A stretch of DNA of 64,000 bases from Leptolyngbyaceae cyanobacterium C42_A2020_001 (lineage in GTDB: Bacteria > Cyanobacteriota > Cyanobacteriia > Leptolyngbyales > Leptolyngbyaceae), in contig JACYLN010000015.1 in NCBI GenBank assembly GCA_015272515.1, positions 44,871 through 108,870 on the forward strand. Direction: 5' to 3'. The translations under genes and the position numbers were made by a program. Under the pieces are notes generated by a model, which was given only the letters and a program-made list of their open reading frames with translations, ran no database searches and was not told where the DNA came from. This document shows, piece after piece, positions 1 to 17,511 of the stretch. The number at the start of each line of letters is the position of its first letter. Position 1 is the first letter of the stretch.

Positions 1-345
1 AAGGCTTTCACTAAGGTCTCTTCCCTCTCTCACGGGCAGAAGCAGTGGGTTGAAATTGGCATGGTATTGGCTCAAGACCCAACCGTCGTGCTGTTAGACG
101 AGCCGACTGCTGGGATGACTCCTGATGAAACCCACATGACGGGGGAAATCATCAAATCAATCTCCAAAACTCACTCCGTAGTCGTGATCGAACACGATAT
201 GGAATTTGTGAAGCAAATTGCTCAGCGTATTGTGGTGCTCCACCAGGGCGCGAAACTCACAGAAGGTACTGTGAGCGAAGTTCAATCGAATCCAGAAGTT
301 ATTGAGGTGTATTTGGGTCGTGAAAGAATCGATGCCGCTGCTTGA
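1..345 (+). CDS. urtD: Urea/amide ABC transporter ATP-binding protein UrtD, 3' end
   Basis: Last 114 codons of an ABC ATPase; the start and Walker A lie before the window. Visible are an ABC signature with H in place of the second G (LSHGQKQWVEIG), Walker B and D-loop (VVLLDEPTAGMT) and the H-loop (VVVIEHDM). The LSHGQKQW form is characteristic of UrtD within the branched-chain-amino-acid-type (HAAT) family. With UrtE it would energise the inner-membrane UrtBC permease that imports urea and, in some bacteria, short amides. It overlaps urtE by 14 bases, so the two are translationally coupled. Amidase and formamidase genes nearby leave the substrate, urea or amide, open. Confidence 0.93.
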   Translation, partial: KAFTKVSSLSHGQKQWVEIGMVLAQDPTVVLLDEPTAGMTPDETHMTGEIIKSISKTHSVVVIEHDMEFVKQIAQRIVVLHQGAKLTEGTVSEVQSNPEVIEVYLGRERIDAAA

Positions 346-1033
346 ATTAACAGATGTGACCGTTGCCTATGACCAGACTCCTGTTCTGTTTGGAATCAAC
401 ATGGCAGTCGATAAAGGCGAAATTGCTTGCTTGCTAGGTCGGAATGGCGTGGGTAAAACTACACTGCTCCGGAGTGTGATTGGGTTGAATAAGGTGATGT
501 CCGGCGGCATTGTGTTTGATGCTGACGAAATCACTAAGGTTCCTACCTACAAGCGCGCTCGTTATGGAATTTCTTACATCCCTCAAGGTCGTGAAATTAT
601 CCCTTACCTATCGGTGCTGGAGAACCTTAAACTAGGCTTCTCAGCCAGTAAACGCAAGCTTTCAAAAATCCCGGAAGAAATCTTTGAGTTTTTCCCGATG
701 CTCCGGGAACATCTCAACCGCCAGGGGGGTTTGTTGAGCGGTGGACAACAACAACAACTGGCGATCGCACGGGGATTGTTGAGTAACCCGCAAATCATGT
801 TGCTAGATGAACCGACGGAAGGCATCCAACCGTCGATCGTCCAGGAAATTGAAACAACCCTGAAGCGCATCAATCGGGAAAAGGGCATTACGATTTTGGT
901 CGTGGAACAGAAGATCGACTTTGCGAAAACACTCGCCCAAAAGTTCTTCATGATGGAGAAAGGCAGCATTGTCGCAAAAGGCCCGACATCTGAACTCACA
1001 ACCGATATCGTTCACCGTTATCTCGCTGTTTAA
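332..1033 (+). CDS. urtE: Urea/amide ABC transporter ATP-binding protein UrtE
   Basis: 233-residue ABC ATPase, the usual UrtE/LivF size. Walker A is GRNGVGKT (about residues 36-43), the signature is LSGGQQQQLAIARGL and Walker B is IMLLDEPTEG. I chose the ATG at 332 over an upstream in-frame TTG because the product then begins MPLLELTDVTVAY, the normal N-terminus. It is the last gene of the transporter operon: a strong terminator follows at 1106. Function is inferred from the family; urea against amide specificity cannot be read from an ATPase. Confidence 0.93.
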   Translation: MPLLELTDVTVAYDQTPVLFGINMAVDKGEIACLLGRNGVGKTTLLRSVIGLNKVMSGGIVFDADEITKVPTYKRARYGISYIPQGREIIPYLSVLENLKLGFSASKRKLSKIPEEIFEFFPMLREHLNRQGGLLSGGQQQQLAIARGLLSNPQIMLLDEPTEGIQPSIVQEIETTLKRINREKGITILVVEQKIDFAKTLAQKFFMMEKGSIVAKGPTSELTTDIVHRYLAV

Positions 1034-2191: not shown

Positions 2192-2207
2192 TGCGATCGC
2201 TGATCTT

Positions 2208-2375: not shown

Positions 2376-2390
2376 TTAATGCGATCGCTG

Positions 2391-2426
2391 AGTAAAAGAA
2401 AAAAACTCATGCCTTAAGACATGAGC
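2391..2426 (-). terminator. Rho-independent terminator of amiE
   Basis: Read on the minus strand: CTCATGTC, loop TTAA, GGCATGAG (8-bp stem with one G-U pair), then a run of seven T and more T-rich sequence. It lies 30 bases beyond the amiE stop codon. Confidence 0.85.
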
Positions 2427-2455
2427 TTTGAAGTTCCAAGAAGATTGTTTAAGAC

Positions 2456-3538
2456 TTAGTTGTTCAGCAGAACGGCCTCTTTTTCCTTCATCACAAGCGG
2501 TGTTTCGGCCAGTTTTTCGGTGGGTAAACCCTCGATCGGGCATTCCTTGGTACCCACGGTCGGACGAGTCAGTTCCTCGACCTGCTCTTTCACTTTCATG
2601 GGGTCGTTGACCCAGTTGCGGTAGAACTCATAAGGACACTCTTGCACGCCTTCCGCACCTTCGCCAGAGTTGATCTTGCCGGTGTAACCCCGGTGCAACA
2701 ACTTGAACAGGTGGTTCTGGGATTGAGCATTCTTGCGGAAATCGCGAATCGCAAACTTGGAAAGAGTCGCGTATTGAATGCCGTAGTCTTCCTCACCACA
2801 CTCGCCTAAGGTCCGACCATCAAAACCGACGATCGCCGAGTGCCCAAAGTAGCTGTAAACACCATCAAAGCCAGCCGCATTGGCAACGGCCACGTAGACG
2901 TTGTTCATCCAGGCCATCGCCTTGGAAACCATGATCTGTTGCTCTTTGGCAGGATACATATACCCTTGGCAACGGACGATTAGCTCTGCCCCTTTCATCG
3001 CACAATCCCGCCAGATTTCGGGATAGTTACCGTCATCACAGATGATCAGGCTCATCTTCATGCCTTTAGGACCCTCGGAGACGTAGGTGCAGCCACCGGG
3101 ATACCATCCTTCAATGGGGCACCAGGGCATAATTTTGCGATAGCGCTGCACAATCTCACCCTGGTCATTCATCAAAATCAAGGTGTTGTAGGGAACTTTA
3201 TTGGGATGATCTTCGTGCTTTTCACCCGTCAATGAAAAAACGCCCCAAACTTTGTTGCGAATGCAGGCTTGAGCAAAAATTTCAGTTTCTGGGCCTGGAA
3301 TGTCTGAAGCGGTCTCCATCATCTCCTCATGGTCGTACATAATTCCATGGGTGGAGTACTCTGGGAAGACGACTAGATCCATGCCCGGCAGACCCACCTT
3401 CATCCCATCAATCATTGACGCAATCTTTTTACAGTTCTCAATGACTTCTGCGCGTGTGTGCAGGCGGGGCATTTTGTAGTTGACAACCGCAACCCCGACT
3501 GCGTCTTCACTGGATGAAATATCGCCATGATAAGCCAT
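2456..3538 (-). CDS. amiE: Aliphatic amidase
   Basis: 360-residue nitrilase-superfamily enzyme that hydrolyses short aliphatic amides (acetamide, propionamide class) to the acid and ammonia in the cytoplasm. The sequence follows the Pseudomonas AmiE pattern nearly throughout: N-terminal [20 protein letters not shown], catalytic Glu in FPEYS (residue 60), Lys in RYRKIMPW and Cys in the [11 protein letters not shown] motif. AGGAG lies 6 bases before the ATG. It is monocistronic, with its own NtcA-type promoter (3568-3609) and terminator (2391-2426). Together with FmdA and the Urt-type transporter it forms an amide-nitrogen acquisition set. Confidence 0.97.
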
Positions 3539-3567
3539 GATTCTCTCCTAAAGCATAGACGCAACCA

Positions 3568-3609
3568 AGTCTATCGGCTTGATTCAGCCGAACTTGTAAT
3601 CTCGAATAC
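3568..3609 (-). promoter_or_regulatory. NtcA-activated promoter of amiE
   Basis: Minus strand: GTATTCGAGATTAC (3596-3609) is a perfect GTA-N8-TAC, followed after exactly 22 bases by TAGACT (3568-3573), a TA-N3-T minus-10 element. This is the canonical layout of class-II NtcA-dependent promoters. It starts 30 bases upstream of the amiE ATG, so the leader would be short. It predicts induction under combined-nitrogen limitation. Confidence 0.85.
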
Positions 3610-3638
3610 AATTTATCAGTGAATAGTCTAACCAGGAT

Positions 3639-3908
3639 CTAGTGGTTTAACATCCACGGGCGACCGCAGTTTTGAGCTTGAAACTTGGGCTTTGCAGGTT
3701 CGCGATCGCGCGACTTCGTGATTAAGTCAGGCTCAGAGGCAGTTTTACGAAGGGGTAAGGTGCTGGAAAGATTAATGGCTGGGGCTGAAAAAATCCGTTG
3801 TCCAGGGGCCTCGCAGGATGGGCAAAAGGCTGGATCACTGGACTCTGCCATCGTTCGCCACTGTTCAAACACACCACAAGAACTGCACCGGAACTCATAA
3901 ATGGGCAT
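3639..3908 (-). CDS. fmdB: FmdB-family zinc-ribbon protein
   Basis: 89-residue protein with the FmdB N-terminus MPIYEFRCSSCG and a second CPSC pair about 20 residues on, giving a CxxC-CxxC zinc ribbon; the C-terminus is basic and disordered-looking. The ATG at 3908 is preceded by GGAGG at 8 bases and yields the family start; an upstream extension does not. FmdB was named as a putative regulator of the Methylophilus formamidase operon. It sits just downstream of fmdA on the same strand, as that history suggests. Its biochemical role is unproven. Confidence 0.85.
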   Translation of the reverse strand: MPIYEFRCSSCGVFEQWRTMAESSDPAFCPSCEAPGQRIFSAPAINLSSTLPLRKTASEPDLITKSRDREPAKPKFQAQNCGRPWMLNH

Positions 3909-3946
3909 GGGTGAAACCTCCATTAACGACATCATTTGAGATTTGT

Positions 3947-3988
3947 ATGTTCTGAGTTTGCACTCAAGCTAGCCCAAACTCAGAACAT
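3947..3988. repeat. Long inverted repeat between fmdA and fmdB
   Basis: A perfect 14-bp inverted repeat (ATGTTCTGAGTTTG at 3947-3960, complement at 3975-3988) with a 14-base loop. It lies between the fmdA stop and the fmdB start. No T-run follows on the minus strand, so it may stabilise, process or attenuate the fmdA-fmdB transcript rather than end it. Confidence 0.7.
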
Positions 3989-4027
3989 TGTATGAACGCT
4001 TTAATGCTCGCTAAATTGGCGATCGCG

Positions 4028-5233
4028 TCAGGTTGGCAAAATGTCCATATCAAAGATTTCCGTCGGAATCGCTACCGTACAGCAGGCATTTGGAACATCC
4101 ACAATGCCGCTGACACGCCCTTCCACCGGAGCACAACTAAGCAGCAAATACGCCTGCTCGCCAGTAAAGCCAAACTTCTTCAAATACTCAATCGCGTTCA
4201 GGCAAGCACGACGATAAGCAATGTGAACATCCATAAAGTACTGCTTACCCGTGTACTCATCCACCGAAATTCCTTCAAACACCAGATACTCTGAGTAACG
4301 TGGTTCTACTGGACCAGGCTTAAAGATGGGATTCACCAAACCATACTTTTCAACACCACCTTTGATGATGTCTACATGCAGATCGATATAACCCGACATT
4401 TCAATCGCGCCACAGAACGAGATTTCGCCATCCCCTTGAGAGAAGTGAATATCGCCCATCGAGAGTTTGGCACCTTCCACATAAACCGGGAAGTAAATTC
4501 GCGTTCCCCGAGAAAGGTTCTTAATGTCGCAGTTACCACCATGTTCGCGGGGTGGAACTGTTCGCGCAGCTTCCGCTGCAACCCGCTCGTAGTCTGACTT
4601 CGGCAAGGTTCCCAAAATGGCATTGGTGGGGTTTGGCAATGCTGCTAGCACTGGAACATTCCCATTCAGACCCGCTCCATAGGTTCGCAGTTCTGGCTGA
4701 GTATTCATCAGTTCGGTCTCACGCTTATTCCACGTGGCTAAAAGCTCATGGGAGGGCGCACAACCAATCAAGCCAGGATGGGTAATTCCGGCAAAGCGAA
4801 CATTGGGAATATGACGCGAGGTGGTGTAAATACCTTGAAAATCCCAGATTGCTTTAGCGGGTTGAGGATAATGATCGGTTAAAAAACCACCACCGTTTTC
4901 CTTTGAAAAAATTCCTGTAAAGCCCCATTCATCGCCTTGTAGCGCACCAATATCAAGCAGATCAACCACCAAAATATCGCCGGGCTGCGCTCCGTTTACC
5001 CAAATCGGACCGCTGAGAACGTGAACCACAGACAGGTCAACATCACGAATGTCGTCTGGGCTATCGTTATCTTTGATTTGCCCATCCGTCCAATCTTTAC
5101 ATTCAATCCGAAAAACTTCGCCCGGGTTGACCGATACCACGGCTGGAATATCAGGATGCCAGCGATTATGCCCGGGCAACTCCTGCTGATCCATGGGCTT
5201 AGTCAAGTCAACCTTAAAAAGCGTTTTAGGCAT
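4028..5233 (-). CDS. fmdA: Formamidase (acetamidase/formamidase family)
   Basis: 401-residue enzyme matching the Methylophilus FmdA type (about 400 residues), which hydrolyses formamide to formate and ammonia. Visible hallmarks are the N-terminal PGHNRWHPDIPAVVSVNPG, the central GVITHPGLIGCAPSHE-like segment, the P-x-R-E-HGGNCDIKNL metal-site motif and FSQGDGEISFCGAIEMSG. AGGAG lies 6 bases before the ATG. Expression is predicted to be NtcA-driven from 5438-5480. It is followed on the same strand by fmdB. It would act on products delivered by the amide/urea transporter or released by the nitrilase operon. Confidence 0.95.
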   Translation of the reverse strand: MPKTLFKVDLTKPMDQQELPGHNRWHPDIPAVVSVNPGEVFRIECKDWTDGQIKDNDSPDDIRDVDLSVVHVLSGPIWVNGAQPGDILVVDLLDIGALQGDEWGFTGIFSKENGGGFLTDHYPQPAKAIWDFQGIYTTSRHIPNVRFAGITHPGLIGCAPSHELLATWNKRETELMNTQPELRTYGAGLNGNVPVLAALPNPTNAILGTLPKSDYERVAAEAARTVPPREHGGNCDIKNLSRGTRIYFPVYVEGAKLSMGDIHFSQGDGEISFCGAIEMSGYIDLHVDIIKGGVEKYGLVNPIFKPGPVEPRYSEYLVFEGISVDEYTGKQYFMDVHIAYRRACLNAIEYLKKFGFTGEQAYLLLSCAPVEGRVSGIVDVPNACCTVAIPTEIFDMDILPT

Positions 5234-5437
5234 ATAACTCTCCTACTGACCTATTTTGTGGCAAACACCTCTAGCACGGCTCTTGAAGTGAGGAGCCGCA
5301 AGCAATGCCGCGAGAGAGCAACAAACCTCGCACTTTAAAAATTCACATTACTTGCGCTGCAATTTCTTGCAGCAAGAACCACGAAGGTATTTCTACCTGC
5401 TTATGAACACACATTCAACGGAGCAGATAACGCTAAG

Positions 5438-5480
5438 ACTCTAGATGTTAAGCCTCAGCATAATCTGTAATTTTGATTAC
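5438..5480 (-). promoter_or_regulatory. NtcA-activated promoter of fmdA
   Basis: Minus strand: GTAATCAAAATTAC (5467-5480) fits GTA-N8-TAC exactly, and 23 bases later TAGAGT (5438-5443) supplies TA-N3-T. It lies about 205 bases upstream of the fmdA ATG, so a leader of about 195 bases is predicted. The rest of the gap 5234-5576 holds an A/T-rich stretch and a short G-rich simple repeat near 5495-5530, and no gene. Confidence 0.85.
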
Positions 5481-5576
5481 ATTTACAGAACAGGGGATAG
5501 GGAATGGGGAATCGAGAATCGGGTGTAGGGTGTGGCGATCGCAAAGAAATTCGTTATTGTTAGGAAATCTAATAGC

Positions 5577-6563
5577 ATGGAGTCGTTGATCTTCATCATG
5601 CCCTTTAAATTAATTATTCAACTGGCACTTGTCAGCTTTGTGGTACTAGGCAAAACTTCCACTGGAACAGCAACTCCAAAGCCTAGTTCAACTTACGCAA
5701 CGTTTGCGGACTGGTGCCGTAATGAGGCGAAGCTACCGAAAGAAACCCAGTTCACGATCGCGGTTTTGCTAAAAATGGCAAACACGCTAGATTGCAATCA
5801 AGCAGATGAGCATTTATCTAGTGCCAGTAGCCTTGATTTAACAGATAGCAAAGTTGCGGATCTTAGTCCGCTGCGATCGCTGACGCAATTGAGACAGCTT
5901 TATTTAGGTAACAATCGCATCACAAACATTGAACCGTTAGAGTCATTAACCGATCTTACCCACTTGTATCTTAGCTACAATCAACTTTCGGATATTCGTG
6001 GATTGAGTAAACTAACCAATTTAAATTATCTATTTCTATCTTCTAATCAAATTAAAGACATCAGCGGTTTACAACCTTTGAAACAACTACAAGGGCTTGA
6101 TCTCGTGTCCAATCAGATCAGCAATCTTGAACCCTTGAAAACGCTGCCTAATTTAACCCGTTTAGATATCAGCTTCAATAAAATCAAAGACATTAGCCCA
6201 TTGCAAGCATTAGTTAACCTTCAAGAACTTTCCCTATCTGCCCAACAAGTTGCCGATATTCGTCCCCTCAATGCGTTGACCAATTTGGTGCATCTTGATC
6301 TCAGCGGCAATCAAATTTCGGATCTAACCTCCCTGCAACCCTTGACGAATCTCATTAGTTTGGGATTGGGTGGTAATCGGATTGCGGATATCACTCCCTT
6401 AAAGTCCTTATTCAGGCTCAATGCGCTGTATTTAAGTGGAAACCAAATCAAAACATTGAAACCTTTGGCAACACTTAAAAATTTGGAGTCGCTATACATT
6501 CAAGGAAATCCGCTTGCGAGTGAGGCTTGCCCGGTGCAACCTGCCTCTATTTGCCGATTTTAA
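5577..6563 (+). CDS. Secreted leucine-rich-repeat protein
   Basis: About 328 residues: an N-terminal hydrophobic signal segment (PFKLIIQLALVSFVVLG), a short linker, then about ten tandem 22-residue LRRs with the internalin-like pattern L-x-L-x-x-N-x-I-x-D-I-x-P-L from about residue 80 to 315, capped by a Cys-containing tail. The start is uncertain: ATG at 5577 (used here), ATG at 5598 or a GTG at 5532. Internalin-type LRRs bind proteins outside the cell or in the periplasm; the partner is unknown. The gene stands alone upstream of a histidine kinase. Confidence 0.85.
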   Translation: MESLIFIMPFKLIIQLALVSFVVLGKTSTGTATPKPSSTYATFADWCRNEAKLPKETQFTIAVLLKMANTLDCNQADEHLSSASSLDLTDSKVADLSPLRSLTQLRQLYLGNNRITNIEPLESLTDLTHLYLSYNQLSDIRGLSKLTNLNYLFLSSNQIKDISGLQPLKQLQGLDLVSNQISNLEPLKTLPNLTRLDISFNKIKDISPLQALVNLQELSLSAQQVADIRPLNALTNLVHLDLSGNQISDLTSLQPLTNLISLGLGGNRIADITPLKSLFRLNALYLSGNQIKTLKPLATLKNLESLYIQGNPLASEACPVQPASICRF

Positions 6564-6689
6564 CTTCAAGGTCTACCTCTTGCCAGGTGCGATCGCGCTA
6601 TTGGACGGATTAAGCTACCAATCAAACAGTCATTCGACAACATTTGCACTTGCTTATTTTGCAGTTACGTCAGATTGGTTGAAAACAGC

Positions 6690-7907
6690 ATGGACTTTAG
6701 CCAGATTCTAAGTCGCAAAAGTGGCACCATCATTGAACGATGGATCGCGGCAGTTTACGAGGATCAACAGATTGAGGCAACCAACGAACTAACGTTTAAG
6801 GAAGTGCGAGACAGCTTACCACGAGTATTACAGGCACTAGCAACTGTTTTGTCGAAGGATGAAGCCAATGATTTGCAAACAATTGTTGAAGCCAGTTTAG
6901 AACACGGCACTTTGCGGGCGGAGCAAGGATTTGAACCTGCTGAGATTGCACGAGAGTATCGCCTCCTACGGTTTGTCATCTTTTCCGTGTTGGAAGAGGA
7001 TTTAGTCAAAGCCTCCTCAACAGATATTTTGCGGGCAGTGCGATTGATCGACACAATCATTGATGAAGCGATCGCTCGATGCTTCAATAGTTACACCCAG
7101 GGACGATTGAATGAACTGGAACAGCTCAAAAGCCAGTTACAACTTACCAACCAGGAACTCACTCGGTTAGTGCGTGCCAGTCAGGAAAATATTTCTCAGT
7201 TAGCCCACGAATTGAAAACGCCGTTGACTTCAATCATTGGGTACGCAGATTTATTTCTAAGACAGCAACAGCAAGAAAGAGCGATGAAAGATGCTCAACC
7301 GAATTTAGAGAATGTTGAACGAGTCTTAAGAAGTGGACGCTTACTTTTGCGATTAATTAATGACACGTTAGAAATTTCTCGATGCAACGCTGGGCAGATG
7401 AGATTGCAACCAATTTCGACTAACGTTCAGGAAGTCATTCGTTCAATTGTTGAGATCATTGAGCCATTGGTAAAAACTAGGGATCTAGCATTGCTTGTCA
7501 ATAGCGATCGCGCTCCTCAAACCGTCATCACTGATCCGTTGCGGCTCCAGCAAATTTTGACTAACTTACTCAGTAACGCCATTCGCTATACCGAATCAGG
7601 TTCGATTCAACTAAACTGCTGGGGAGTGAATGAACATGAGTGGGCAATTTCCATTACTGACACTGGCGTTGGCATTTCTGAAGAGGATCAAGCACGGATT
7701 TTTGATCCTTACTTTCGTTCAGATAGCAACCACTCACTTGCAATTCAATCTGATGGAACCGGCTTAGGCTTAGCGATCGTCGCGCAACTGGTAAAGTTAA
7801 TGCAGGGTGAGATCAAGGTGCAGTCTCAACTAGGGAAAGGCTCACAGTTTATCGTGCTATTGCCAACAAAAATTTCAAAGCCAGCAAACGCAGAGTTTAC
7901 TGGCTAA
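6690..7907 (+). CDS. Sensor histidine kinase with RsbRD-like N-terminal domain
   Basis: 405 residues with no membrane segment. Residues 1-140 form an all-alpha RsbRD/globin-sensor-like input domain. Next comes a short coiled coil, a HisKA dimerisation domain with phospho-acceptor His173 in the motif LAHELKTPLTS, and an HATPase_c domain with N box (NLLSNAIRY), G1 (DTGVGI) and G2 (GTGLGLAIV). The ATG at 6690 is chosen over an upstream TTG. The likely job is phosphotransfer to a response regulator; two regulators are encoded next to it (7999-8718 and 8916-9350) but pairing is unproven. Confidence 0.88.
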   Translation: MDFSQILSRKSGTIIERWIAAVYEDQQIEATNELTFKEVRDSLPRVLQALATVLSKDEANDLQTIVEASLEHGTLRAEQGFEPAEIAREYRLLRFVIFSVLEEDLVKASSTDILRAVRLIDTIIDEAIARCFNSYTQGRLNELEQLKSQLQLTNQELTRLVRASQENISQLAHELKTPLTSIIGYADLFLRQQQQERAMKDAQPNLENVERVLRSGRLLLRLINDTLEISRCNAGQMRLQPISTNVQEVIRSIVEIIEPLVKTRDLALLVNSDRAPQTVITDPLRLQQILTNLLSNAIRYTESGSIQLNCWGVNEHEWAISITDTGVGISEEDQARIFDPYFRSDSNHSLAIQSDGTGLGLAIVAQLVKLMQGEIKVQSQLGKGSQFIVLLPTKISKPANAEFTG

Positions 7908-7998
7908 GGGATGGGAATTAAATAAGTCAGAGAACATATTTAGGCTGGATGTCCTAGCAATTCGCTCTGCCCTAAGCTTTCTGACTGTTGCTATGCAA

Positions 7999-8718
7999 TT
8001 AAGCAACTAACCCGGAACGCAGAGCACGAACGGCAGCCTGAGTTCGGTCTTCGGCACACAGTTTGCTGAGAATGTTGCGGACGTGAGTTTTAACAGTGCC
8101 CACAGTAATGTACAACTTATCGGCGATCGCCGCATTGCTGTAACCCGACACAATTAACTCTAAAATTTCCAGTTCCCGCTCCGTCAAGGGATAGCTCTCT
8201 AGCACTTGCTCAAACTCGGCATCCATCGCCCCAATTTCAACCGTTTTAGCATTGTGAGTTGCACGCCCACCTGGCGAAACCTGACGAATTTGGTGCAACA
8301 CCACGTTTGCGATCGCAGGGTCAATCCAAGAGCTGCCAGCCTGGGTCGCCTTAATCGCCTCCACCAAGCGCTCAATACTGACATCCTTCATACAATAAGA
8401 ATCTGCCCCGGCTGCAAAAGCAGCAAGTACAGCATCTTCACTGTCATGCATGGTCAAGATTAAGATCTTGGTTTTTTCGTCTTCCTTCTCTGCCTGAAGT
8501 TGTCTAAACTTTTGAGTCAACTCAATTCCATCCATATCTGGCAGACCAATATCTACCACAGCGACATCAGGATGCATCCCCTCCAATACTTTTAATCCCT
8601 GACTAGCATTTGCCGCCTCGCCTACAACTTGAATTCCTGTTTGTTGCTTTAAAGCTGTTCTCAAACCGATCCGAGTCAGGTCATGATCCTCGATTAAAAC
8701 AACATTTATATCGCTCAT
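7999..8718 (-). CDS. NarL/LuxR-family response regulator
   Basis: 239 residues. The receiver domain (1-125) has acidic pocket E10-D11, phospho-acceptor D56 (VVDIGLPDMDG), a conserved Thr in LTMHDS and Lys in MKD. A linker follows, then a C-terminal GerE/LuxR helix-turn-helix (about 175-239) with LTEREREIL-like and TVGTVKTHVRNILSKL recognition segments. It is a DNA-binding output regulator, convergent with the histidine kinase gene upstream. The start ATG follows AAGGACGTGAGAT. Confidence 0.9.
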   Translation of the reverse strand: MSDINVVLIEDHDLTRIGLRTALKQQTGIQVVGEAANASQGLKVLEGMHPDVAVVDIGLPDMDGIELTQKFRQLQAEKEDEKTKILILTMHDSEDAVLAAFAAGADSYCMKDVSIERLVEAIKATQAGSSWIDPAIANVVLHQIRQVSPGGRATHNAKTVEIGAMDAEFEQVLESYPLTERELEILELIVSGYSNAAIADKLYITVGTVKTHVRNILSKLCAEDRTQAAVRALRSGLVA

Positions 8719-8915
8719 ATCTCACGTCCTTACAAACCTACAAAAGGCATAACCGACTAATATTCTGTCTGTAATGGTTATATAGGTTTTTTTGAAACTG
8801 CGGCATCCATCGTGAGGTATAGCGCTCTCATCCGAAAGCATGAATTCACGAAAAAAGTTGTCCCAGAAAAAATATAATTTAAGATCTTTCAACGCTTCAT
8901 CAAGTTGGAAAAGGA

Positions 8916-9350
8916 ATGCGCGATACTCAGACTATTAACGTTCTCCTCGTAGAAGACGATGAGGTGGACGTGATGAACGTTAAACGAGCGTTTAAGAAGA
9001 ATCAAATCAACAACCCGTTACACGTTGCTGCCAATGGAGTGCAAGCTCTGGAAATGTTGAGAGGAGATGGTTCTGTAACGCCAACCATTCCATCTTCGCG
9101 GTGCGTGATTATTTTAGACTTAAATATGCCTAAGATGGGTGGACTGGAGTTTTTACAGGAATTACGGTCTGACCCGATACTCAGATTTCTTCCAGTGGTG
9201 GTGCTCACCACGTCCGATCAGCAAGAAGACCGGAGACAGGCGTATGAGTACAATGTCGCAGGCTATTTGATTAAGCCCGTCACCTTTGCTGCATTCTCAA
9301 ATTTGATTGCTGTACTAAATCAGTACTGGATGCTGAATGAAATGCCTTGA
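8916..9350 (+). CDS. Single-domain response regulator (Rcp1-like)
   Basis: 144-residue CheY-like receiver with no output domain. Acidic pair EDDE (13-16), phospho-acceptor D68 (ILDLNMPKMGG), Thr in VLTTSD and Lys in LIKPV. The insertion between beta-2 and beta-3 and the PVTFAAF tail match the Rcp1 type that takes phosphate from cyanobacterial phytochromes or hybrid kinases. It has its own promoter region and ends 2 bases from the convergent CPBP gene. Confidence 0.88.
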   Translation: MRDTQTINVLLVEDDEVDVMNVKRAFKKNQINNPLHVAANGVQALEMLRGDGSVTPTIPSSRCVIILDLNMPKMGGLEFLQELRSDPILRFLPVVVLTTSDQQEDRRQAYEYNVAGYLIKPVTFAAFSNLIAVLNQYWMLNEMP

Positions 9351-9352
9351 CT

Positions 9353-9910
9353 CTACGATGATTCAGATGGGTGGGGATCTAGTTTTTCCATGCCACCTAG
9401 CGCCATTAACCAGATGACCACCGCCACCCAATGGATCAGGGTGATTGCCAGGAGGGAACCAGTCAGAAAATAGGCAACGGTGCAGGCGAGGCCTAGCAAG
9501 GCTGCTAAGGTGAGAAATATAGGATTAAAGAAGGTAGGGTCAGCCGCTTTGTAGAGTGTTTTAGCGTTTAACGGGTGACAGATGACAAACACAATTAAAC
9601 TGGCGATCGCCCAGATGATCCACCCTGATTTGAGCACTGTGGGAGCGGGAGAAGGCAGCAATAACACCCGAAAAATTAACTCTTCCACAAAGGAGGGCAT
9701 CACGAGCAGTTGTACCGACATCCGAGTATACCGCCATCCAGAGGCATCCCAGAGTTTAACTTGCAAAAATCCTTGAGAGAAGCCGATGGGTAGTGCGATC
9801 GCAGCATAGCCCAATAAAACCCAAAGTGTGATGCCCCACTCTCTCAGGTTGGGCAGTTTCATAACGTCTACCATCCGTGCAACCAAGCCTGACACACTGG
9901 CATCAACCAT
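9353..9910 (-). CDS. CPBP-family intramembrane protease-like protein
   Basis: 185-residue polytopic membrane protein with about five hydrophobic segments. The diagnostic EExxxR motif is EELIFR (residues 76-81); a later H in VFVICHP and the HWVAVVIW segment complete the CPBP/Abi metal-site pattern. It starts 6 bases after the MSMEG_0570-type gene, so it is the promoter-distal gene of the Nit1C operon. It is not part of the usual Nit1C gene set. The start could also be an internal Met (residue 13 or 17). Confidence 0.75.
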   Translation of the reverse strand: MVDASVSGLVARMVDVMKLPNLREWGITLWVLLGYAAIALPIGFSQGFLQVKLWDASGWRYTRMSVQLLVMPSFVEELIFRVLLLPSPAPTVLKSGWIIWAIASLIVFVICHPLNAKTLYKAADPTFFNPIFLTLAALLGLACTVAYFLTGSLLAITLIHWVAVVIWLMALGGMEKLDPHPSESS

Positions 9911-9916
9911 CCGGGT

Positions 9917-10204
9917 CTACTCCAAAAACTGAATAAAGTGAACCACAGGCTGCGGGCCACTTGCATAACGAGCAGCGGTTGCTTCAATTCGAGCGAGTTG
10001 TTTCAATGCCATACCACAGGGCATTCCATATTTTGCCTCAACTCGATCGCTGGCAATTTGCAGCGCTGTACGCGATCGCTCCAGGAAGTCATTTAAGGAA
10101 TAATTGCTGTTGGGTGTGAAATAGTCTTTCACTACTAACGAAGGAGAATAGCAAACTTCTTGAGTTCCATCCGGCCACTGAATTTTAAAGTTGATTTCAG
10201 GCAT
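9917..10204 (-). CDS. MSMEG_0570-family nitrogen starvation response protein
   Basis: 95-residue small protein beginning MPEINFKIQWPDGTQE, with CYSPS and a C-terminal ARIEATAARYA helix, the recognised pattern of the family named after Mycobacterium MSMEG_0570 and found only in Nit1C-type clusters. Function unknown. It overlaps the glycosyltransferase gene by 8 bases and so is probably translationally coupled. It may correspond to NitG of Pseudomonas clusters; I am not certain of that equivalence. Confidence 0.85.
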   Translation of the reverse strand: MPEINFKIQWPDGTQEVCYSPSLVVKDYFTPNSNYSLNDFLERSRTALQIASDRVEAKYGMPCGMALKQLARIEATAARYASGPQPVVHFIQFLE

Positions 10205-11393
10205 GGTTTTTTAGGAGGTGCTGATAATGTTGCAGATGAAGTTGGGCTGAGAGTTTCCAGGTGTAGCTTGGCAGAACGAATTGACTGTTTTGCACCAATG
10301 CTTGAGCCAGTTCAGGTTGACAACTCATCCTCATCGCGGTTGCAATTTCATTGGGAGATTGTGGATCAACAAGTAGTGCCTGGTAAGGTGAGAGGAACTC
10401 CGTAAACGGGGGCTGATTGGATGTAATCACGGGTAAGCCAGAGGCGATCGCTTCTAACAATACCAAACCCCACCCTTCTTTGAGCGATGGAAACACAAAA
10501 GCATCCGCAATTCGGTAAAGTGCGGGTAATTCATCGGTAGAAATCACCCCTGGCAAAACCAGAGCCTCACCGATTGGAATAGACAAGCGCTTGACCAGGG
10601 CAAAAAATTCATCTCGGTAAGGTTGATAGTCAAACAAAGTTTCTCCCCCCGCAATCACCAGTTGCGCGTTGGGAAAGTCTTGGTGCACCTGAGCAAAAGC
10701 TTGCAGTAAATTCATCGAGTTTTTACGCGGTTCCACTCCCCCCACGGTTAAAAAAATCGGTGCACCATTCAGGTTCCAGCGCTGCTTCAGTTGAGTTTCA
10801 ATTCCCGTTGGAACTGGCGAAAACTGTTGCAGATTTACGCCATTACTTACCCGCGCTGCCTGAAGGCTATACTGCTGCCAGAGTTCGGCTTGCCAGCGAT
10901 CGCTCACACACAAGCACAAATCCGCCTGCCGAATCGACCGCTCCTGACACTCTTGCAAATAAATGCTGGTGTATTCTTCAATGTGATGCACCGTGCGAAT
11001 GAAGTGAGGGATAAAATGTTGCTGCCGCAAAATCGCTAAGGCATTGGCACTGAGGCAATCTTGCGCGTGATAAATATCGGCATTGGGCGGCTCTTGAATG
11101 AGATAATCAACAAACTCCTGAATGCGTTGCCGAATCAGTGCATCCATGCCAGCAGGGGCGGGTTGGGTGGGAATCAGGCAAATCTGACAAGAAGTTGAAT
11201 AATCAAATCCTTTGCCATCCTTACTCAATGCATAAATACAAACCTCATGTCCCAATTTTTGCAGTGCTGTTGCCAATTCCAGCGTATGTACAACGCTGCC
11301 CCTCAATTTAGTGGAGTAGGTAAACAACCCGACTTTCAACGGCGCTTGAGGGTTGGGAGTTAAGCTGAGCGAGGAGGGTAATACACCACTCAT
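10197..11393 (-). CDS. MSMEG_0565-family glycosyltransferase
   Basis: 398-residue GT-B glycosyltransferase of family 4 type: N-terminal KVGLFTYSTKLRGSVVHTLELA, a central VSNGVN, and the donor-site signature FVFPSLKEGWGLVLLEAIA with the E-x7-E pair near residues 305-315. Members accompany Nit1C clusters in actinobacteria and cyanobacteria, which implies that a sugar is attached to the pathway product. Donor and acceptor are unknown. Overlaps the upstream gene by 4 bases. Confidence 0.87.
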   Translation of the reverse strand: MSGVLPSSLSLTPNPQAPLKVGLFTYSTKLRGSVVHTLELATALQKLGHEVCIYALSKDGKGFDYSTSCQICLIPTQPAPAGMDALIRQRIQEFVDYLIQEPPNADIYHAQDCLSANALAILRQQHFIPHFIRTVHHIEEYTSIYLQECQERSIRQADLCLCVSDRWQAELWQQYSLQAARVSNGVNLQQFSPVPTGIETQLKQRWNLNGAPIFLTVGGVEPRKNSMNLLQAFAQVHQDFPNAQLVIAGGETLFDYQPYRDEFFALVKRLSIPIGEALVLPGVISTDELPALYRIADAFVFPSLKEGWGLVLLEAIASGLPVITSNQPPFTEFLSPYQALLVDPQSPNEIATAMRMSCQPELAQALVQNSQFVLPSYTWKLSAQLHLQHYQHLLKNHA

Positions 11394-12385
11394 AGGTTAG
11401 CTGGGGTTGCTACATGGGGTTCCGCAGAAAAACCCGTTAAGCCTTGCCGAGATAAATCCCAAAATTCAATCAATTCGTTCTGCGATCGCAATCTTAAACA
11501 ATGGGTTGACTCCACCTCTCCCACCGCTTCGCAAACCAATCCCCACCGCCGAAAGTGAGCCTGTACCGCCGCAACCTGATCAGAGCGCGCACTCAGCAAA
11601 AAACCATAGCTGGGAAAGCTCACCAACCACCGCTCTAGCGGCACTTTGGCAGGGCAAGGGATGGCATCTATATCTAGCGTGGCTCCACAACCTGATGTTT
11701 CTAGCAACATCAACGTCGTGCCAATAATGCCACCCATGCTGATATCTTTTCCTGCTTCGCACAAACCTGCTTCTGCCAATTGGGGTAACAGTTCCAGATC
11801 GGCTTGTAATCGAGCTGGGTCAGCGGTTGTTGCTGCATTCCAGAAGGGATAGGTGGGATGTGCCTGCCCCCGAAAGTCGATCGCCACCAGCAAGCGATCG
11901 CCCGGTTTCGCTTTGAAGCTACTGAGCAGCCGAGTGGCACGTCCCATAATTGCTACAGATAAAGCATTGTAGGGACTGTGGCAATTGGTGTGTCCTCCCA
12001 CTATTGGTACATTGTAAGCAGTGGCAGCCGCTCTCATACCCGCCAAAATTGGCTCTGTTGCAGTTGTTGATTGACTCCAAAGCGTATCTACTACCGCGAT
12101 CGCCCGTCCACCCATTGCGGCAATATCACTGACATTCACCATCACCGCACACCAGCCTGCAAACCAGGGATCTGCCTCCACGAAAGCAGGCAACATGCCT
12201 TCAGCGGCAAAGAGCAGATAACCGTCGCGATCGGGAATAGCAGCGCAGTCGTCGCCGAGCAAGAGGGGTTGGGGGTTGGGGTGTAGGGTCGGGGGGGTGA
12301 GGAGAAAACGGGAGACGGTTTGAATGTCCTGTTTGTGCAGGATGCTGAGGGAGTGTTTCAGAGTGGCGACCAGGCTGGAGAGCAT
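11390..12385 (-). CDS. nitF: Sll0787-family AIR synthase-like protein
   Basis: 331 residues with PurM/ThiL-type fold signatures: GDDCAAIPDRDGYLL (metal/ATP-binding Asp pair), a GG.TNCHSP glycine-rich loop (VPIVGGHTNCH), and DISMGGIIGT in the C-terminal half. Such enzymes use ATP to phosphorylate or activate an oxygen or carbonyl during ring closure. A Pro-rich segment (LTPPTLHPNPQPLLL) just before GDD is encoded by a C/T-rich simple repeat at about 12255-12300 and looks like an insertion. Gene spacing to the GNAT is 4 bases. The symbol follows the Pseudomonas nit1C naming. Confidence 0.87.
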   Translation of the reverse strand: MLSSLVATLKHSLSILHKQDIQTVSRFLLTPPTLHPNPQPLLLGDDCAAIPDRDGYLLFAAEGMLPAFVEADPWFAGWCAVMVNVSDIAAMGGRAIAVVDTLWSQSTTATEPILAGMRAAATAYNVPIVGGHTNCHSPYNALSVAIMGRATRLLSSFKAKPGDRLLVAIDFRGQAHPTYPFWNAATTADPARLQADLELLPQLAEAGLCEAGKDISMGGIIGTTLMLLETSGCGATLDIDAIPCPAKVPLERWLVSFPSYGFLLSARSDQVAAVQAHFRRWGLVCEAVGEVESTHCLRLRSQNELIEFWDLSRQGLTGFSAEPHVATPANL

Positions 12386-12389
12386 GAAT

Positions 12390-12908
12390 TTAGGAAGCCT
12401 CCTGGCTTTGGAAGGGTAAAACTGGGCGAACCTCAGTTCCAGGAGGATAGTGGGCGAGATCGGCTTCCATCAAGTGATGGGGGCGATCGCAAATGGTTAG
12501 TTCCTTCAAAGATTGCCAGTGCAGGCGGCGGAAGAAGCGGACATTTTGCAGTTGCACCGTTGCCAAAAATCGCTGACACCCCCAGGTGTTGGCAGTGGTC
12601 ACAGCTTTATAAATCAGCCCTTTGCCAATTTGCCCGACTCGTCGATAGTCTGGGTGAACGCCTAAGCGGCCGCCATACCATAATCCGGGTTGGGATTCGT
12701 AAATGCGAACAACGCCGATGATTGTTGGGGAATGAGGAATCGGGAAGAGGGAAGGGGTGGCGATGATAGGGTAGGCGATCGCGTCAAATTCGTCGTCATC
12801 ATTGCCTGCAAACACGCCCTGCTCTTCCACAAAAATACTGCGACGCAAGGCGAAATAAGCCTGAATTTCCTGAGGTGTAGTGGCGAGATTGAATTGGTAC
12901 ATGGACAT
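12390..12908 (-). CDS. nitE: MSMEG_0567/Sll0786-family nitrogen starvation N-acetyltransferase
   Basis: 172-residue GNAT-fold protein: N-terminal YFALRRSIFVEEQGVFAG, the pair RIYE...WYGGRLGVHPDYRR (acceptor strand plus acetyl-CoA pyrophosphate loop R-x-x-G-x-G/A: RVGQIGKGL) and a C-terminal beta strand. A tract reading TPSLFPIPHSPT between YPI and IIGVVRIYE breaks a region that is short in other members. It is encoded by G-rich simple repeat at about 12722-12760, in frame. The acetyl acceptor is unknown. It lies 64 bases after the radical SAM gene, the widest gap in the operon. Confidence 0.86.
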   Translation of the reverse strand: MSMYQFNLATTPQEIQAYFALRRSIFVEEQGVFAGNDDDEFDAIAYPIIATPSLFPIPHSPTIIGVVRIYESQPGLWYGGRLGVHPDYRRVGQIGKGLIYKAVTTANTWGCQRFLATVQLQNVRFFRRLHWQSLKELTICDRPHHLMEADLAHYPPGTEVRPVLPFQSQEAS

Positions 12909-12972
12909 TTAGGGAATCAAAAATCTCGTAGGGGTACATCTTGTACGTACCCAACAACAATTGAGGGAGAAA

Positions 12973-14055
12973 TTATTCAAATGTTGAAAGCGCCGAACAT
13001 GCACCACATTTTGCACAGCCTGCTTTAATTTCAGCAGAGGACATTCCGACTTGGTTCAGTTGCTTACCAATATGCTGATAGAGGGTATACATAAACTCAC
13101 TATCAGGTGCAGAATGATTCGCCAATGGAGTGCCCGTAATCGGCACGAATGGTACTACAAACGGATACACTCCCATCTGAATTAAGCGATCGCAGGTTTC
13201 CACAATCACCTCCAAACTATCGCCCAACCCCGCCAGAATATAGGTATTCACCTGCCCCCAGCCAAACACTTTCACGGCTGCTGCAAATGCTTGAAAGTAG
13301 TACTCCACGGAAACCTCTGCCTTACCGGGCATGATTCGCGTCCGCACTTCAGGGGTCACCGCTTCCAGATGCATCCCCAGACTATCCACCCCTGATTGTT
13401 TCAGCCGTTCAAACCAGACAAAATCATCCGGCGGTTCGCACTGCGCCTGAATTGGCAAGTCAACTGCCAGTTTTACAGCCCTCGCACATTCCGCCAAGTA
13501 AGCAGCGCCGCGATCGCTAGTATTCGGTGTTCCCGTCGTCATCACCATATGCTGCACTCCATCCAAACGCACAGCGGCTTCTGCCACTTCTGCCAGTTGG
13601 GCGGGGGTCTTGCGGGCAATGGTGCGATCGCTGGTTAAAGAATGTTCAATCGCGCAAAACTGACAGGCAGTGGATGGGTCACGATACCGCATACAGGTTT
13701 GCATCACCGTGGTTGCCAGTACATCGCGGCTGTGTAGCAGGGCGATTTTCCAGTAGGGAATGCCATCGGCAGTGGTAAGGCTATAAAACGTGGGCTGCGT
13801 TGGGAACGAGATCGGCGCAATCTCTGCACTATTCCACTTCAACTGAATTCGTTCAATTTCATCGATTTGAGCCGTGTAGGGAGACTGCTGCGCCGTGCCT
13901 GTAAACACTGGAACCATTACAGTTGTGCCATCAATGGTGACCGCTTTGTGGTCTGAGGGTCCAGCCCCGCCTTTGCGCCCAGCCACTCCCACATTCGGTT
14001 CTATCAACCGCAACCCGTGGGTTTGCAGTTCTGTGATGAGCCGTTGTTTTTCCAT
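12973..14055 (-). CDS. nitD: MSMEG_0568-family radical SAM protein
   Basis: 360 residues. The [4Fe-4S] motif is CMRYRDPSTACQFC (C121, C131, C134), a CX9CX2C spacing usual for this family rather than the canonical CX3CX2C. A second, C-terminal Cys group CAKCGAC (C347, C350, C353) could hold an auxiliary cluster. A biotin-synthase-like barrel lies between (MVMTTGTPN; HLEAVTPEVR). It would generate the 5'-deoxyadenosyl radical for an unknown carbon-nitrogen skeleton step. Spaced 5 bases from the nitrilase gene. Confidence 0.9.
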   Translation of the reverse strand: MEKQRLITELQTHGLRLIEPNVGVAGRKGGAGPSDHKAVTIDGTTVMVPVFTGTAQQSPYTAQIDEIERIQLKWNSAEIAPISFPTQPTFYSLTTADGIPYWKIALLHSRDVLATTVMQTCMRYRDPSTACQFCAIEHSLTSDRTIARKTPAQLAEVAEAAVRLDGVQHMVMTTGTPNTSDRGAAYLAECARAVKLAVDLPIQAQCEPPDDFVWFERLKQSGVDSLGMHLEAVTPEVRTRIMPGKAEVSVEYYFQAFAAAVKVFGWGQVNTYILAGLGDSLEVIVETCDRLIQMGVYPFVVPFVPITGTPLANHSAPDSEFMYTLYQHIGKQLNQVGMSSAEIKAGCAKCGACSALSTFE

Positions 14056-14060
14056 GTTTT

Positions 14061-15056
14061 TTATTGGATAACACTGTCTACGGGTTGCTCAAGTGGTGGC
14101 ATGAGCGTCACGCGATCGCCTATTTCTGAACTTGCCATCACTGTTTGGGCACTGAGATTGGCGTGCAGTTGCAACAATTCCGGGCGAGAATAATGCCCCA
14201 CCGAATCCATCATGCGTTTGCGTTTTGTGATTAAAGAGAAGTCAAGATCGGCGATCGCAATTCCTTCCCCATCCGTAATGGGTGGACACAGGTGAGTCCC
14301 TTCTGGGCTAATAATGGCCGTGTTGCACCCCCCGCTCAATACCCGTTGCAGGGTTTCATCAGGGGTAATTTGCGCCACTTGCTCAGGCGATAGCCAGCCC
14401 GTTGCATTCACCACAAAACACCCCGATTCCAGCGCATGATGCCGAATCGTTACTTCAATTTGGTCAGCAAAGATTTGCCCCACCATCGAACCGGGAAACT
14501 GAGAGCAATGAATTTGCTCATGTTGCGCCATTAGAGCAAACCGTGCCAGGGGATTGTAATGTTCCCAGCAGGCAAGGCTACCCACCCGCCCCACTGCGGT
14601 ATCCAGCACTCTTAAGCCAGAACCATCTCCCTGCCCCCATACCATGCGTTCATGATAAGTGGGTGTAATCTTTCGCCGCTTTAGCAGTAAGCTACCATCC
14701 GCATCAAACACAAGCTGCGTGTTGTATAGGGAACCGCCATCTCGCTCGTTTACCCCCAGAACTACCACCACTCCGTAAGAACGAGCGGCACGACTCACCG
14801 CATCGGTTACAGGACCAGGAACCACGACTGCCTCTTCGTAAAGGCGCATGTGCTCTTTGCCCATTAGCACCGGGGGCTGTATGAACGAAAAATAGGGATA
14901 GTAGGGAATAGCCGTTTCGGGAAAAACCACCAATTGGGCACCGTCTTTTGCCGCCGTTGCGATCGCTTGCAGCACCTTTTCCGTCGTGCCATCCCGACTA
15001 AACAACACCGGACTCAACTGAACAGCAGCCACTCGGACTTGTTTGGCGTAGTCCAT
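14061..15056 (-). CDS. nitC: Nit6803-type nitrilase
   Basis: 331-residue nitrilase with the catalytic triad visible as E47 ([12 protein letters not shown]), K129 ([11 protein letters not shown]) and C163 ([10 protein letters not shown]). It belongs to the group typified by Synechocystis Sll0784 (Nit6803), which hydrolyses nitriles to acid and ammonia. In Pseudomonas the orthologue, NitC, is required for growth on cyanide. Here it is second in an NtcA-promoted operon, consistent with ammonia release from a nitrile or cyano compound. The physiological substrate is unknown. It starts 2 bases after the preceding stop. Confidence 0.94.
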
Positions 15057-15058
15057 CT

Positions 15059-15541
15059 CTAAACCGTCCAGGTATCCAGAATGAATGCGTTATCTTTGCG
15101 ATGCATCAAGATAATATCCAACACATCTAGCGGACTGATAGGGCGAATCCCTGGAATCAACGATGGTTCACCATGCCCGTATAACGCCTGTAACGCAAAG
15201 CGGCAAGCATATACCTTTCCGCCTTCTGCCATAAATTTACTGAGCTGGTCATTAAAGTTTTGATGCCCAGGGAAGGCAGAATCTCCCAGCTTGGGAAAAC
15301 CGCGCTGTACTCCCAACGTCACACCAGGACCGTACAACAACACCGATGTCTCAAACCCTTTTCGTTGTAAACGAGTTGCTTGCAACAAATTAACAAACCC
15401 AATAGAGCCTTCAAAGGCAACAGTGTGGAAAGTCACCAGCGCTTTCTCACCCGGATCGGCTTTCACATCGGGAAACACTTTCTCTTCGTAATCCACAAAG
15501 AAGTCGCCAGTTTGGTGCGCGGGAGCGGTCACTTCAGGCAT
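15059..15541 (-). CDS. nitB: MSMEG_0572/Sll0783-family nitrogen starvation response protein
   Basis: 160 residues, first gene of the Nit1C operon. The core ([20 protein letters not shown], then [16 protein letters not shown] and a [13 protein letters not shown] segment) resembles a DsrE-like alpha/beta fold with a conserved Cys. The Synechocystis orthologue Sll0783 is strongly induced by nitrogen starvation and its loss impairs polyhydroxybutyrate accumulation. The ATG at 15541 is chosen because AGGAG lies 8 bases upstream; an earlier in-frame start would place the RBS inside the gene. The molecular function is unknown. Confidence 0.92.
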
Positions 15542-15575
15542 GAAATTTTCTCCTAATCGTTGCAAGATTGCTGTC

Positions 15576-15618
15576 AGATTACGGGCTGGTAAAGACTCAG
15601 TTTTGTATCTCCAATTAC
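15576..15618 (-). promoter_or_regulatory. NtcA-activated promoter of the Nit1C operon
   Basis: Minus strand: GTAATTGGAGATAC (15605-15618) is a perfect GTA-N8-TAC; TAATCT (15576-15581) follows after 23 bases as TA-N3-T. It lies 35-80 bases upstream of the nitB ATG. The third such promoter in the window, with the same geometry as those of amiE and fmdA. Confidence 0.87.
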
Positions 15619-16149
15619 GAAAACCGTTGATCTGGCAATAACGCCAGGCATAAGGATTTTGCTACCCACAATAACTAAAGGCTTACCTGCCCACCTGTTT
15701 AAATCGATAGGTGACGGGTAGCTTTGCTCTATGTTTCCGTCAGATAGAAACTCCAACACAGTTGAATCGACTTGTACGTAAGCGATAGCCCATTTTAGGG
15801 AACTGCCGAATCGGTTTCCCGATTTTGGGGTTAAGAGCGCAGTTTGACCAGCAATGAGTACTTTTCAAACATCTTCCTAAAGACAGTTCATAAAGAACTT
15901 TGAGTAATAAGTAAGGGGCGGAAGCAAAAAGCATCAAAAAATTAATAAGTTTATAGGGTTAACAATTGATTTATCTCTTTGATGTGTTGCTCTAAAAATA
16001 TTTTTTATTTAGCCATCATTAATACATTTAAACTTCTTAAAAAGAAACTTATCTCTTACGACAGATGTGTTGATGTATTGGTCTTTATATTCTTACTTTG
16101 ATAAGCATTTTTAGCTTACGAAACTAATTGCTTGCTAGGAGGAAATAGA
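15619..16149. other. Divergent intergenic region
   Basis: About 530 bases between the Nit1C promoter and the membrane-protein gene at 16150. The half near 16149 is very A/T-rich and should contain the promoter of that gene. On the minus strand a frame without stops runs from about 15864 to 15574 (about 95 codons) but has no convincing start or RBS and ends inside the NtcA promoter; I do not call it a gene. Confidence 0.5.
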
Positions 16150-16800
16150 ATGGTGTACGGTGAAGAGCCAAGAGGCAGAGTCGTTGAACGAGTATCGAGC
16201 GTTCCCGCAATTGACTATCACGATCGCGTGCGTTGGGGTCCTGTTCTGGCTGGGTTGTTCGTTGCAATTAGCTCCCAGCTCGTTCTGAGTGGAATTGCAG
16301 CAGCGATTGGGCTTACAACCATCGCAGGTTCTGGTGCTCCCCGCTCCAATGCAGGCGATGTTGGGGCGGCTGTTGGAATTGGAGCAATCATTAGTTTACT
16401 GATCTCTTTGTTTCTGGGTGGATGGATTACATCCCGTGCTTGCGGACCCATTAACCGCAGTACTGCGCTTCTAAATGGTGCAATTCTTTGGGCAACCACA
16501 CTGGCAATTAGCGGTTGGCTACTTTCTAGTGGGGTGTCTGGTGCATTTGGTGTGGTTGCATCCAACGCTGGCGAATTATTGAATCAAGCTCAACAAAGCG
16601 GTGTGACTCCCGGTAATGTCGATCCTAATGTCACTGCTCAACAAACCCGTGACATTGCTGGAAATGCTGCAAAAGTGGGTTGGTCTTTTGCGTTAGGTTC
16701 TCTTCTAGGGCTTATTGCCTCTCTAATTGGGGCAACTGTTGGCAACAAAACTTCTCGGGGGGATGTTCCCAGAACAGTTGATCAAACCTATTCTTCTTAA
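16150..16800 (+). CDS. Conserved membrane protein of unknown function
   Basis: 216 residues: a charged N-terminus (VYGEEPRGRVVERVSS), then about four hydrophobic segments (WGPVLAGLFVAISSQLVL; glycine-rich VGIGAIISLLISLFLGGW; LLNGAILWATTLAISGWLL; WSFALGSLLGLIASLIGA). The layout resembles YrzE/PhnA-like membrane proteins common in cyanobacteria. The ATG at 16150 has a perfect AGGAGG 7 bases upstream; an in-frame TTG at 16132 does not. Monocistronic. Function unknown; relatives are often stress-related, which is only suggestive. Confidence 0.75.
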   Translation: MVYGEEPRGRVVERVSSVPAIDYHDRVRWGPVLAGLFVAISSQLVLSGIAAAIGLTTIAGSGAPRSNAGDVGAAVGIGAIISLLISLFLGGWITSRACGPINRSTALLNGAILWATTLAISGWLLSSGVSGAFGVVASNAGELLNQAQQSGVTPGNVDPNVTAQQTRDIAGNAAKVGWSFALGSLLGLIASLIGATVGNKTSRGDVPRTVDQTYSS

Positions 16801-17220
16801 GGTCTGTTTAAGTGTTTCGGTGTATGCTTAACTCGGTGTTCAAGCTATCTTAGGTAGATAGCTCTGAAGGGTTATTTATCACAATTGAAAGTGGTGTAGC
16901 GGTTAGTAAAACTTCCTGTTGCACCACTTTGTCATATTGAAATTGGCTCTGACGGTCTGTTCATGCGCCAGGATAATTTTAGGTTAACTCACTAAGGGCG
17001 ATCGCAACTTGTTGTTTTTGCCCACCCAGTAGAATAAACCATTCGTTTGCTCGTTCATCGGTGTAAATTGTGGCATAATCTCTACTTCATAACATCGACA
17101 AAGCAATAATAGACACAACACGTACCACCCACTCATCCACCCGCTTACTCTTCTACTCCTCCCCACCTCCCTCAACCCCTTATGCCCTCAGCGAAAAGCG
17201 CAGGTGGATTTTACTGTCCT
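16801..17220. other. Intergenic region with two hairpins
   Basis: About 420 bases. Two inverted repeats follow the membrane-protein gene: AGCTATC/GATAGCT (16843-16863, 7-base loop) and AAAGTGGTG/CACCACTTT (16888-16930, 25-base loop). Either may end its transcript, though neither has a long T-run. The rest (16940-17220) contains no recognisable gene and appears to be debris upstream of the PIN pseudogene. Confidence 0.5.
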
Positions 17221-17493: not shown

Positions 17494-17511
17494 CGCTTGG
17501 GGCTTTTTCTG

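Follow-up and report, generated by a model that had tools for sequence, protein, structure and literature searches.

The canonical promoters activated by NtcA, including those of glnA, nirA, urtA, and ntcB, present a GTAN8TAC core followed ~22–23 nucleotides (nt) downstream by a TAN3T -10 box (PMC3898017). Nit1C gene clusters have been described in Candidatus (Ca.) Regnicoccus frigidus, as nitHBCDEFG (PMC9716671; our nit gene letters follow this source), and in Synechocystis, as the ammonium-repressed operon sll0783–ssl1464 (PMC10094980), and FmdA is up-regulated in nitrogen-limited Arthrospira (PMC4509649). Formamidases, urtA, and msmeg_0566 are nitrogen-controlled as part of the GlnR regulon of Mycobacterium smegmatis, where GlnR binds upstream of msmeg_0572 (PMC4222082), while in Bradyrhizobium a five-gene urt-like ATP-binding cassette (ABC) operon lies beside formamidase and amiE genes (PMC3098086); all of these statements reflect the passages available of each source. 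Control of nitrogen genes by NtcA is already known, and a nitrogen response of Nit1C and fmdA has already been reported in other cyanobacteria. Here, we describe three predicted NtcA-activated promoters upstream of amiE, fmdA, and a Nit1C operon in a stretch of 64,000 nt (the window) from Leptolyngbyaceae cyanobacterium C42_A2020_001; they differ from the canonical promoters in that their targets encode amide- and nitrile-hydrolysing enzymes. The passages of literature found mention no NtcA site for amiE or fmdA, and the finding extends a known control system in a solid, though ordinary, way.

A pattern scan for GTAN8TAC-N22/23-TAN3T yielded three matches in the window, all on the minus strand, and no others on either strand. 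The first-pass annotation of this DNA had described three textbook NtcA-activated promoters facing amiE, fmdA, and the Nit1C operon; the scan reproduced their coordinates exactly, along with strand and orientation, and core, spacing, -10 box, and orientation all fit the canonical definition as given in the available passages of PMC3898017. The predicted amiE promoter (3568..3609, minus strand) reads GTATTCGAGATTAC-N22-TAGACT, with a predicted transcription start at ~3561 and a leader of ~23 nt, and scores 20.1 with the weight matrix described below. The predicted fmdA promoter (5438..5480, minus strand; GTAATCAAAATTAC-N23-TAGAGT; score 23.6) would start transcription at ~5431 and produce a longer leader (~198 nt), while the predicted Nit1C promoter (15576..15618, minus strand; GTAATTGGAGATAC-N23-TAATCT; score 34.2) has its predicted start at ~15569 and a leader of ~28 nt. 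The GTAN8TAC core is thus present in 3/3 sites, as is the TAN3T -10 box 22–23 nt downstream; allowing spacings of 18–27 added one further pattern match in the window (27150–27187, N18).

The bare GTAN8TAC core occurs nine times in the window, as compared to 4.5 expected, a count that is not significant alone since 7 of 100 shuffles reached at least nine. Full matches are expected at 0.24 per window (200 Markov shuffles) or 0.37 per window (density across the genome outside the window), so that the earlier figure of about one chance match per 64 kb was an overestimate, and the probability of at least three full matches per window is 0.002–0.007. Three matches are improbable but, contrary to the earlier statement, do not lie far beyond chance by count alone, which is not conclusive; the comparison with relatives is the convincing part. 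A genome-wide scan, which the first-pass annotation had suggested as a check, identified 35 full-pattern matches in 5.55 Mb (21 with N22 and 14 with N23), as compared to 69 for a reversed-pattern control; many of these 35 are probably chance matches, because the bare pattern is not enriched over this control.

Recurrence and ranking of the sites

Among 291 genomes of the class, fmdA was found in 80 (E 1e-60), amiE in 36 (1e-100), nitB in 119 (1e-30), and nitH in 120 (1e-60); for each gene, the 450 bases upstream were scanned in the 30 top-ranking loci, our genome among them. A full site was present upstream of nitB in 27/30 loci, of amiE in 19/30, and of fmdA in 11/30. For nitH, 19/30 loci presented a full site, 8/30 a relaxed site (i.e., GTN10AC with spacing and -10 box unchanged), and 3/30 neither. 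For nitB, amiE, and fmdA, shuffled upstream sequences presented a site in a mean of 0.05–0.11 of 30 loci (maximum 2), and the reversed pattern was found in none. Across the class, sites before the same genes vary in their inner bases; for example, in a genome of the same genus (G142), the fmdA core is GTAGTCAAAACTAC, which differs from GTAATCAAAATTAC by two changes and retains the dyad. That genome contains amiE and fmdA, with no match to nitB or nitH at E 1e-30 and 1e-60, respectively. Since many relatives carry this signature upstream of the same genes, amiE, fmdA, and Nit1C are likely switched on together when nitrogen becomes scarce.

We also scanned 20 regions (363,540 bases) chosen from the 80 fmdA genomes, own genome included, most of which were picked for carrying amiE and fmdA on one contig. 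These regions contained 35 full-pattern matches, as compared to 2.3 expected at the density of our genome; 29 of them face urtA, amiE, fmdA, nitB, or nitH (27 within 500 bases and two at 501–900), and the other six represent mirror readings of a symmetric core (five) or a match inside fmdA (one). The gene urtA is present in 13 of the 20 regions, in an order that is shuffled relative to amiE, fmdA, and fmdB.

In a second, partly overlapping fmdA set (the best 80 loci of named genomes), a full site preceded 8 of the 45 cyanobacterial loci, and a full or relaxed site 15/45, while neither was found in the 34 loci of other phyla or in one locus labelled Gracilibacteria, which was counted apart.

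The weight matrix was built from 86 distinct sites upstream of fmdA, amiE, nitB, and nitH in relatives, excluding our genome, and has the consensus tttGTAaccAgAGATACAAAa with a -10 box of TAatCT; it was used to rank the window and the 35 full-pattern matches of the genome. The three predicted promoters have the top three scores of the window; no score in 30 shuffled windows exceeded 15.1. The match ranked fourth in the window (17.4; core at 63236) is also above this shuffle maximum; it was rejected because it has a CTA half-site and the listed genes of >100 amino acids around it run on the opposite strand. Among the 35 genome matches, the top eight precede, in order, nitB, nitH, urtA, fmdA, a porin gene, nirA, glnA, and amiE. 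The matrix is independent for genes outside its four training genes, and it separates likely NtcA sites from chance matches better than the bare consensus does.

Two other sites of the genome were recorded during this ranking. The fifth-ranked match (L010:1501-1542; score 23.1) is located before an SLH/OprB-type porin gene, and an NtcA core, GTAATGATCGTTAC, at L006:1473-1542 presents TAN3T at N22 on both sides, with a citrate synthase gene on one side; it is possible that this core represents a two-way NtcA promoter.

Predicted NtcA control and rival explanations

We conclude, with a probability of about 0.9, that the three sites are class II NtcA promoters that would activate amiE, fmdA (with fmdB), and the Nit1C operon under nitrogen shortage. 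The genome encodes NtcA (TIGR03697, 394.1 bits; cut-off 244.95), and direct class II activation appears to be the best explanation since NtcA is present, the arrangement is canonical, and no sigma-70-type promoter was identified in 2150–5600 (0 found; 4.2 expected from shuffles). The link of amidase, formamidase, and Nit1C to nitrogen starvation, proposed in the first-pass annotation, is likewise supported by the sites in relatives, by the rank of these sites alongside those of glnA, nirA, and urtA, and by the presence of ntcA. The same regulon is predicted to include UrtABCDE and NitH, the Nit1C flavoprotein encoded apart from the operon. The likely mechanism follows the established NtcA model: low ammonium would raise 2-oxoglutarate, and NtcA dimers would bind GTAN8TAC, centred ~41.5 nt before the transcription start, and recruit RNA polymerase to the TAN3T -10 box in the absence of a -35 element. 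Short amides would then yield ammonium through AmiE and FmdA, and nitriles or cyanide would yield nitrogen through Nit1C, to be used by glutamine synthetase, whose gene has the same kind of site.

Several points weigh against this interpretation. Genome-wide, the bare pattern is not enriched over its reversed control, and neither a full nor a relaxed site was found within 450 bases in 14/30 fmdA loci and 10/30 amiE loci, which makes fmdA the weakest case. The genomes compared are related to one another. Because the training sites of the matrix came from these four genes in relatives, the scores of these genes reflect conservation and are not independent proof. Binding, induction, and substrates in this organism are inferred.

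The nonsignificant count of the bare core and the lack of genome-wide enrichment of the full pattern are also what would be expected if three nine-base matches simply happened to precede nitrogen genes; however, the recurrence of the sites before the same genes in relatives and their absence from all 34 non-cyanobacterial fmdA loci make a chance origin very improbable. Binding by another CRP-family regulator with a similar box is, in our estimate, just as improbable: seven weaker matches to the NtcA model (41–94 bits) were found in the genome, but the sites of nirA, glnA, and urtA, which are classical NtcA targets in the available passages of PMC3898017, score highly with the same matrix. Slightly less probable still is that the divergent leucine-rich-repeat gene (5532–6563, plus strand), and not fmdA, is the target of the fmdA box, since, while the box has a symmetric core between two divergent genes and leucine-rich-repeat genes neighbour fmdA in several relatives, its plus side has no TAN3T at spacings 18–27, and the fmdA-facing site also occurs where no relative of this gene was found (e.g., L165 and L178).

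Genes of the predicted regulon and their neighbourhood

The predicted Nit1C promoter is followed by genes of the families nitB to nitG, all above their cut-offs in a single gene run on the minus strand with gaps of ≤64 nt. These genes are nitB (15059..15541; MSMEG_0572/Sll0783 family; TIGR04044, 291.5 bits, cut-off 109.9), nitC (14061..15056; Nit6803-family nitrilase; TIGR04048, 579 bits, cut-off 502.6; solved relative 3wuy), nitD (12973..14055; MSMEG_0568-family radical SAM protein; TIGR04043, 602.5 bits), nitE (12390..12908; MSMEG_0567/Sll0786-family N-acetyltransferase; TIGR04045, 229 bits), nitF (11390..12385; sll0787-family AIR synthase-like protein; TIGR04049, 475 bits), an MSMEG_0565-family glycosyltransferase gene (10197..11393; TIGR04047, 489 bits), and nitG (9917..10204; MSMEG_0570 family; TIGR04042, 125.5 bits). 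A gene encoding a CPBP/Rce1-like membrane protein (9353..9910, minus strand; PF02517) begins 6 nt after nitG and is possibly the last gene of the operon; a search with this protein found 53 relatives, and those with names are mostly CPBP or CAAX proteases. The nitB–nitG families are in the same order as in the clusters of Ca. Regnicoccus frigidus (PMC9716671) and Synechocystis (PMC10094980), as far as the available passages describe them; our locus differs in that the glycosyltransferase and CPBP-like genes lie within the run and nitH is on a separate contig with its own NtcA-type site.

This nitH gene (locus L022:184-1543; MSMEG_0569 family; TIGR04046, 665 bits, cut-off 498) is located on contig C30. 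Its site has a score of 34.0 and ranks second among the 35 genome matches, so that the split Nit1C set accounts for the two best scores (nitB, 34.2, and nitH), one for each part. Within the class, nitH is present in 115 of the 119 nitB genomes. In 15 of 30 nitH loci, own genome included, nitB is on another contig or far off, a separation that represents a within-contig distance in G193 only, the others being draft assemblies; 10 of these 15 loci presented a full upstream NtcA-type site, three a relaxed site, and two none. Because the detached nitH has the same promoter signature, the Nit1C regulon would appear to outlast the break-up of the operon.

The other two predicted promoters precede genes that are also on the minus strand. 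Curated NCBIfam cut-offs place the predicted products of fmdA (4028..5233; formamidase; NF045496, 676 bits, cut-off 500; solved relative 2wkn) and amiE (2456..3538; aliphatic amidase; NF009802, 707 bits, cut-off 427; solved relative 2plq) in their respective families. AmiE residues E60, K135, E143, and C167, which we take to be the catalytic residues, are in place. Between the two genes lies fmdB (3639..3935), encoding a zinc-ribbon protein (TIGR02605, 61.8 bits, cut-off 31.3). A terminator scan identified three terminator-like sequences (3.3 expected), none between fmdA and amiE and one just 3′ of amiE, so that transcription from the fmdA promoter may also extend into amiE. The long predicted fmdA leader (5234–5431) presented a hairpin around GAA-N4-TTC just past the predicted start in most of seven folded leaders, which are from our genome and near relatives; the leader of L041 was without it. 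A search of window positions 1–20000 against Rfam (E up to 1) gave no match, and therefore no known riboswitch family was found in this leader.

The window begins with the end of urtD and with urtE (1..1033, plus strand), which belong to a urtABCDE operon that has an NtcA-type site to the left of the window (C115:40347-40388) and adjoins ureG (named by eye). UrtA beside the window scored 421 bits (cut-off 493). Since this is the sole transporter-type UrtA found, adjoins ureG, and the genome has a urease, urea is the likely substrate of UrtABCDE. This distinguishes the operon from the urt-like operon of Bradyrhizobium (PMC3098086, available passages), which it resembles in its position beside formamidase and amiE genes. 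The idea that urtABCDE is reserved for amides while another transporter takes up urea was unsupported, as the only other strong UrtA match (L293:1486-3210; 490.3 bits, just below the cut-off) is a UrtA-like domain fused to a sensor-like sequence that runs off the contig end, and inspection by eye showed no leader peptide in it. Between urtE and amiE, a MetX-like alpha/beta hydrolase of the PRK07581 family is encoded at 1142–2191; a 79% identical relative adjoins amiE in L175.

Of the 36 genomes with amiE, 35 contain fmdA and 28 contain nitB (14.7 expected), although the Fisher values for this co-occurrence are too strong owing to the relatedness of the genomes. A conserved island joining Nit1C to amiE and fmdA was considered and rejected: amiE lies within 30 kb of nitB on one contig in only three genomes (G000, G103, and G179) of the 28 with both genes, most of the 28 being drafts. 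In G179, amiE sits inside the Nit1C run, flanked by nitF and the glycosyltransferase gene. The link is therefore a common regulon and not a conserved island.

A palindrome before amiE in relatives and implications

The boldest lead from this analysis lies outside the window. In relatives from several families, a palindrome, ATAGTTA-N6-TAACTAT, directly precedes the NtcA box of amiE. Near amiE (L165:4563-8681, with a similar arrangement in L166–L169), a membrane sensor kinase of ~930 amino acids is encoded, along with a response regulator whose MarR-type domain was confirmed by Pfam for L165 alone. The membrane domain of the kinase is labelled purine/cytosine permease-like from source-given names only, and Pfam searches of it at E up to 5 returned no transporter family. 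The strict palindrome was present at 8 of 12 amiE loci with the kinase on the same contig within ~16 kb, at 2/5 with the kinase elsewhere in the genome, and at 0/13 with no kinase match in the genome. In the 2.04 Mb of fetched loci, all strict palindromes but one were in amiE or kinase loci, the exception being an fmdA locus (L217). In our genome, the kinase search returned nothing at 1e-100, and the closest approaches to the palindrome carry two mismatches. We tentatively suggest, as a possibility somewhat short of even odds, that NtcA represents half of an ancestral AND switch in which the kinase and MarR-type regulator would sense amides and bind the palindrome, while genomes without the kinase, ours included, lack the palindrome and would use NtcA alone. 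If so, amiE in kinase-bearing relatives would fire only under the combination of nitrogen shortage and available amide.

If the predicted NtcA control of amiE, fmdA, and Nit1C is correct, nitrogen from short amides and from nitriles or cyanide would join the cyanobacterial nitrogen-stress regulon. The likeness to the GlnR regulon would be convergent, given that GlnR is unrelated to NtcA, and two unrelated regulators, NtcA in cyanobacteria and GlnR in mycobacteria, would then be wired to the same set of enzymes.

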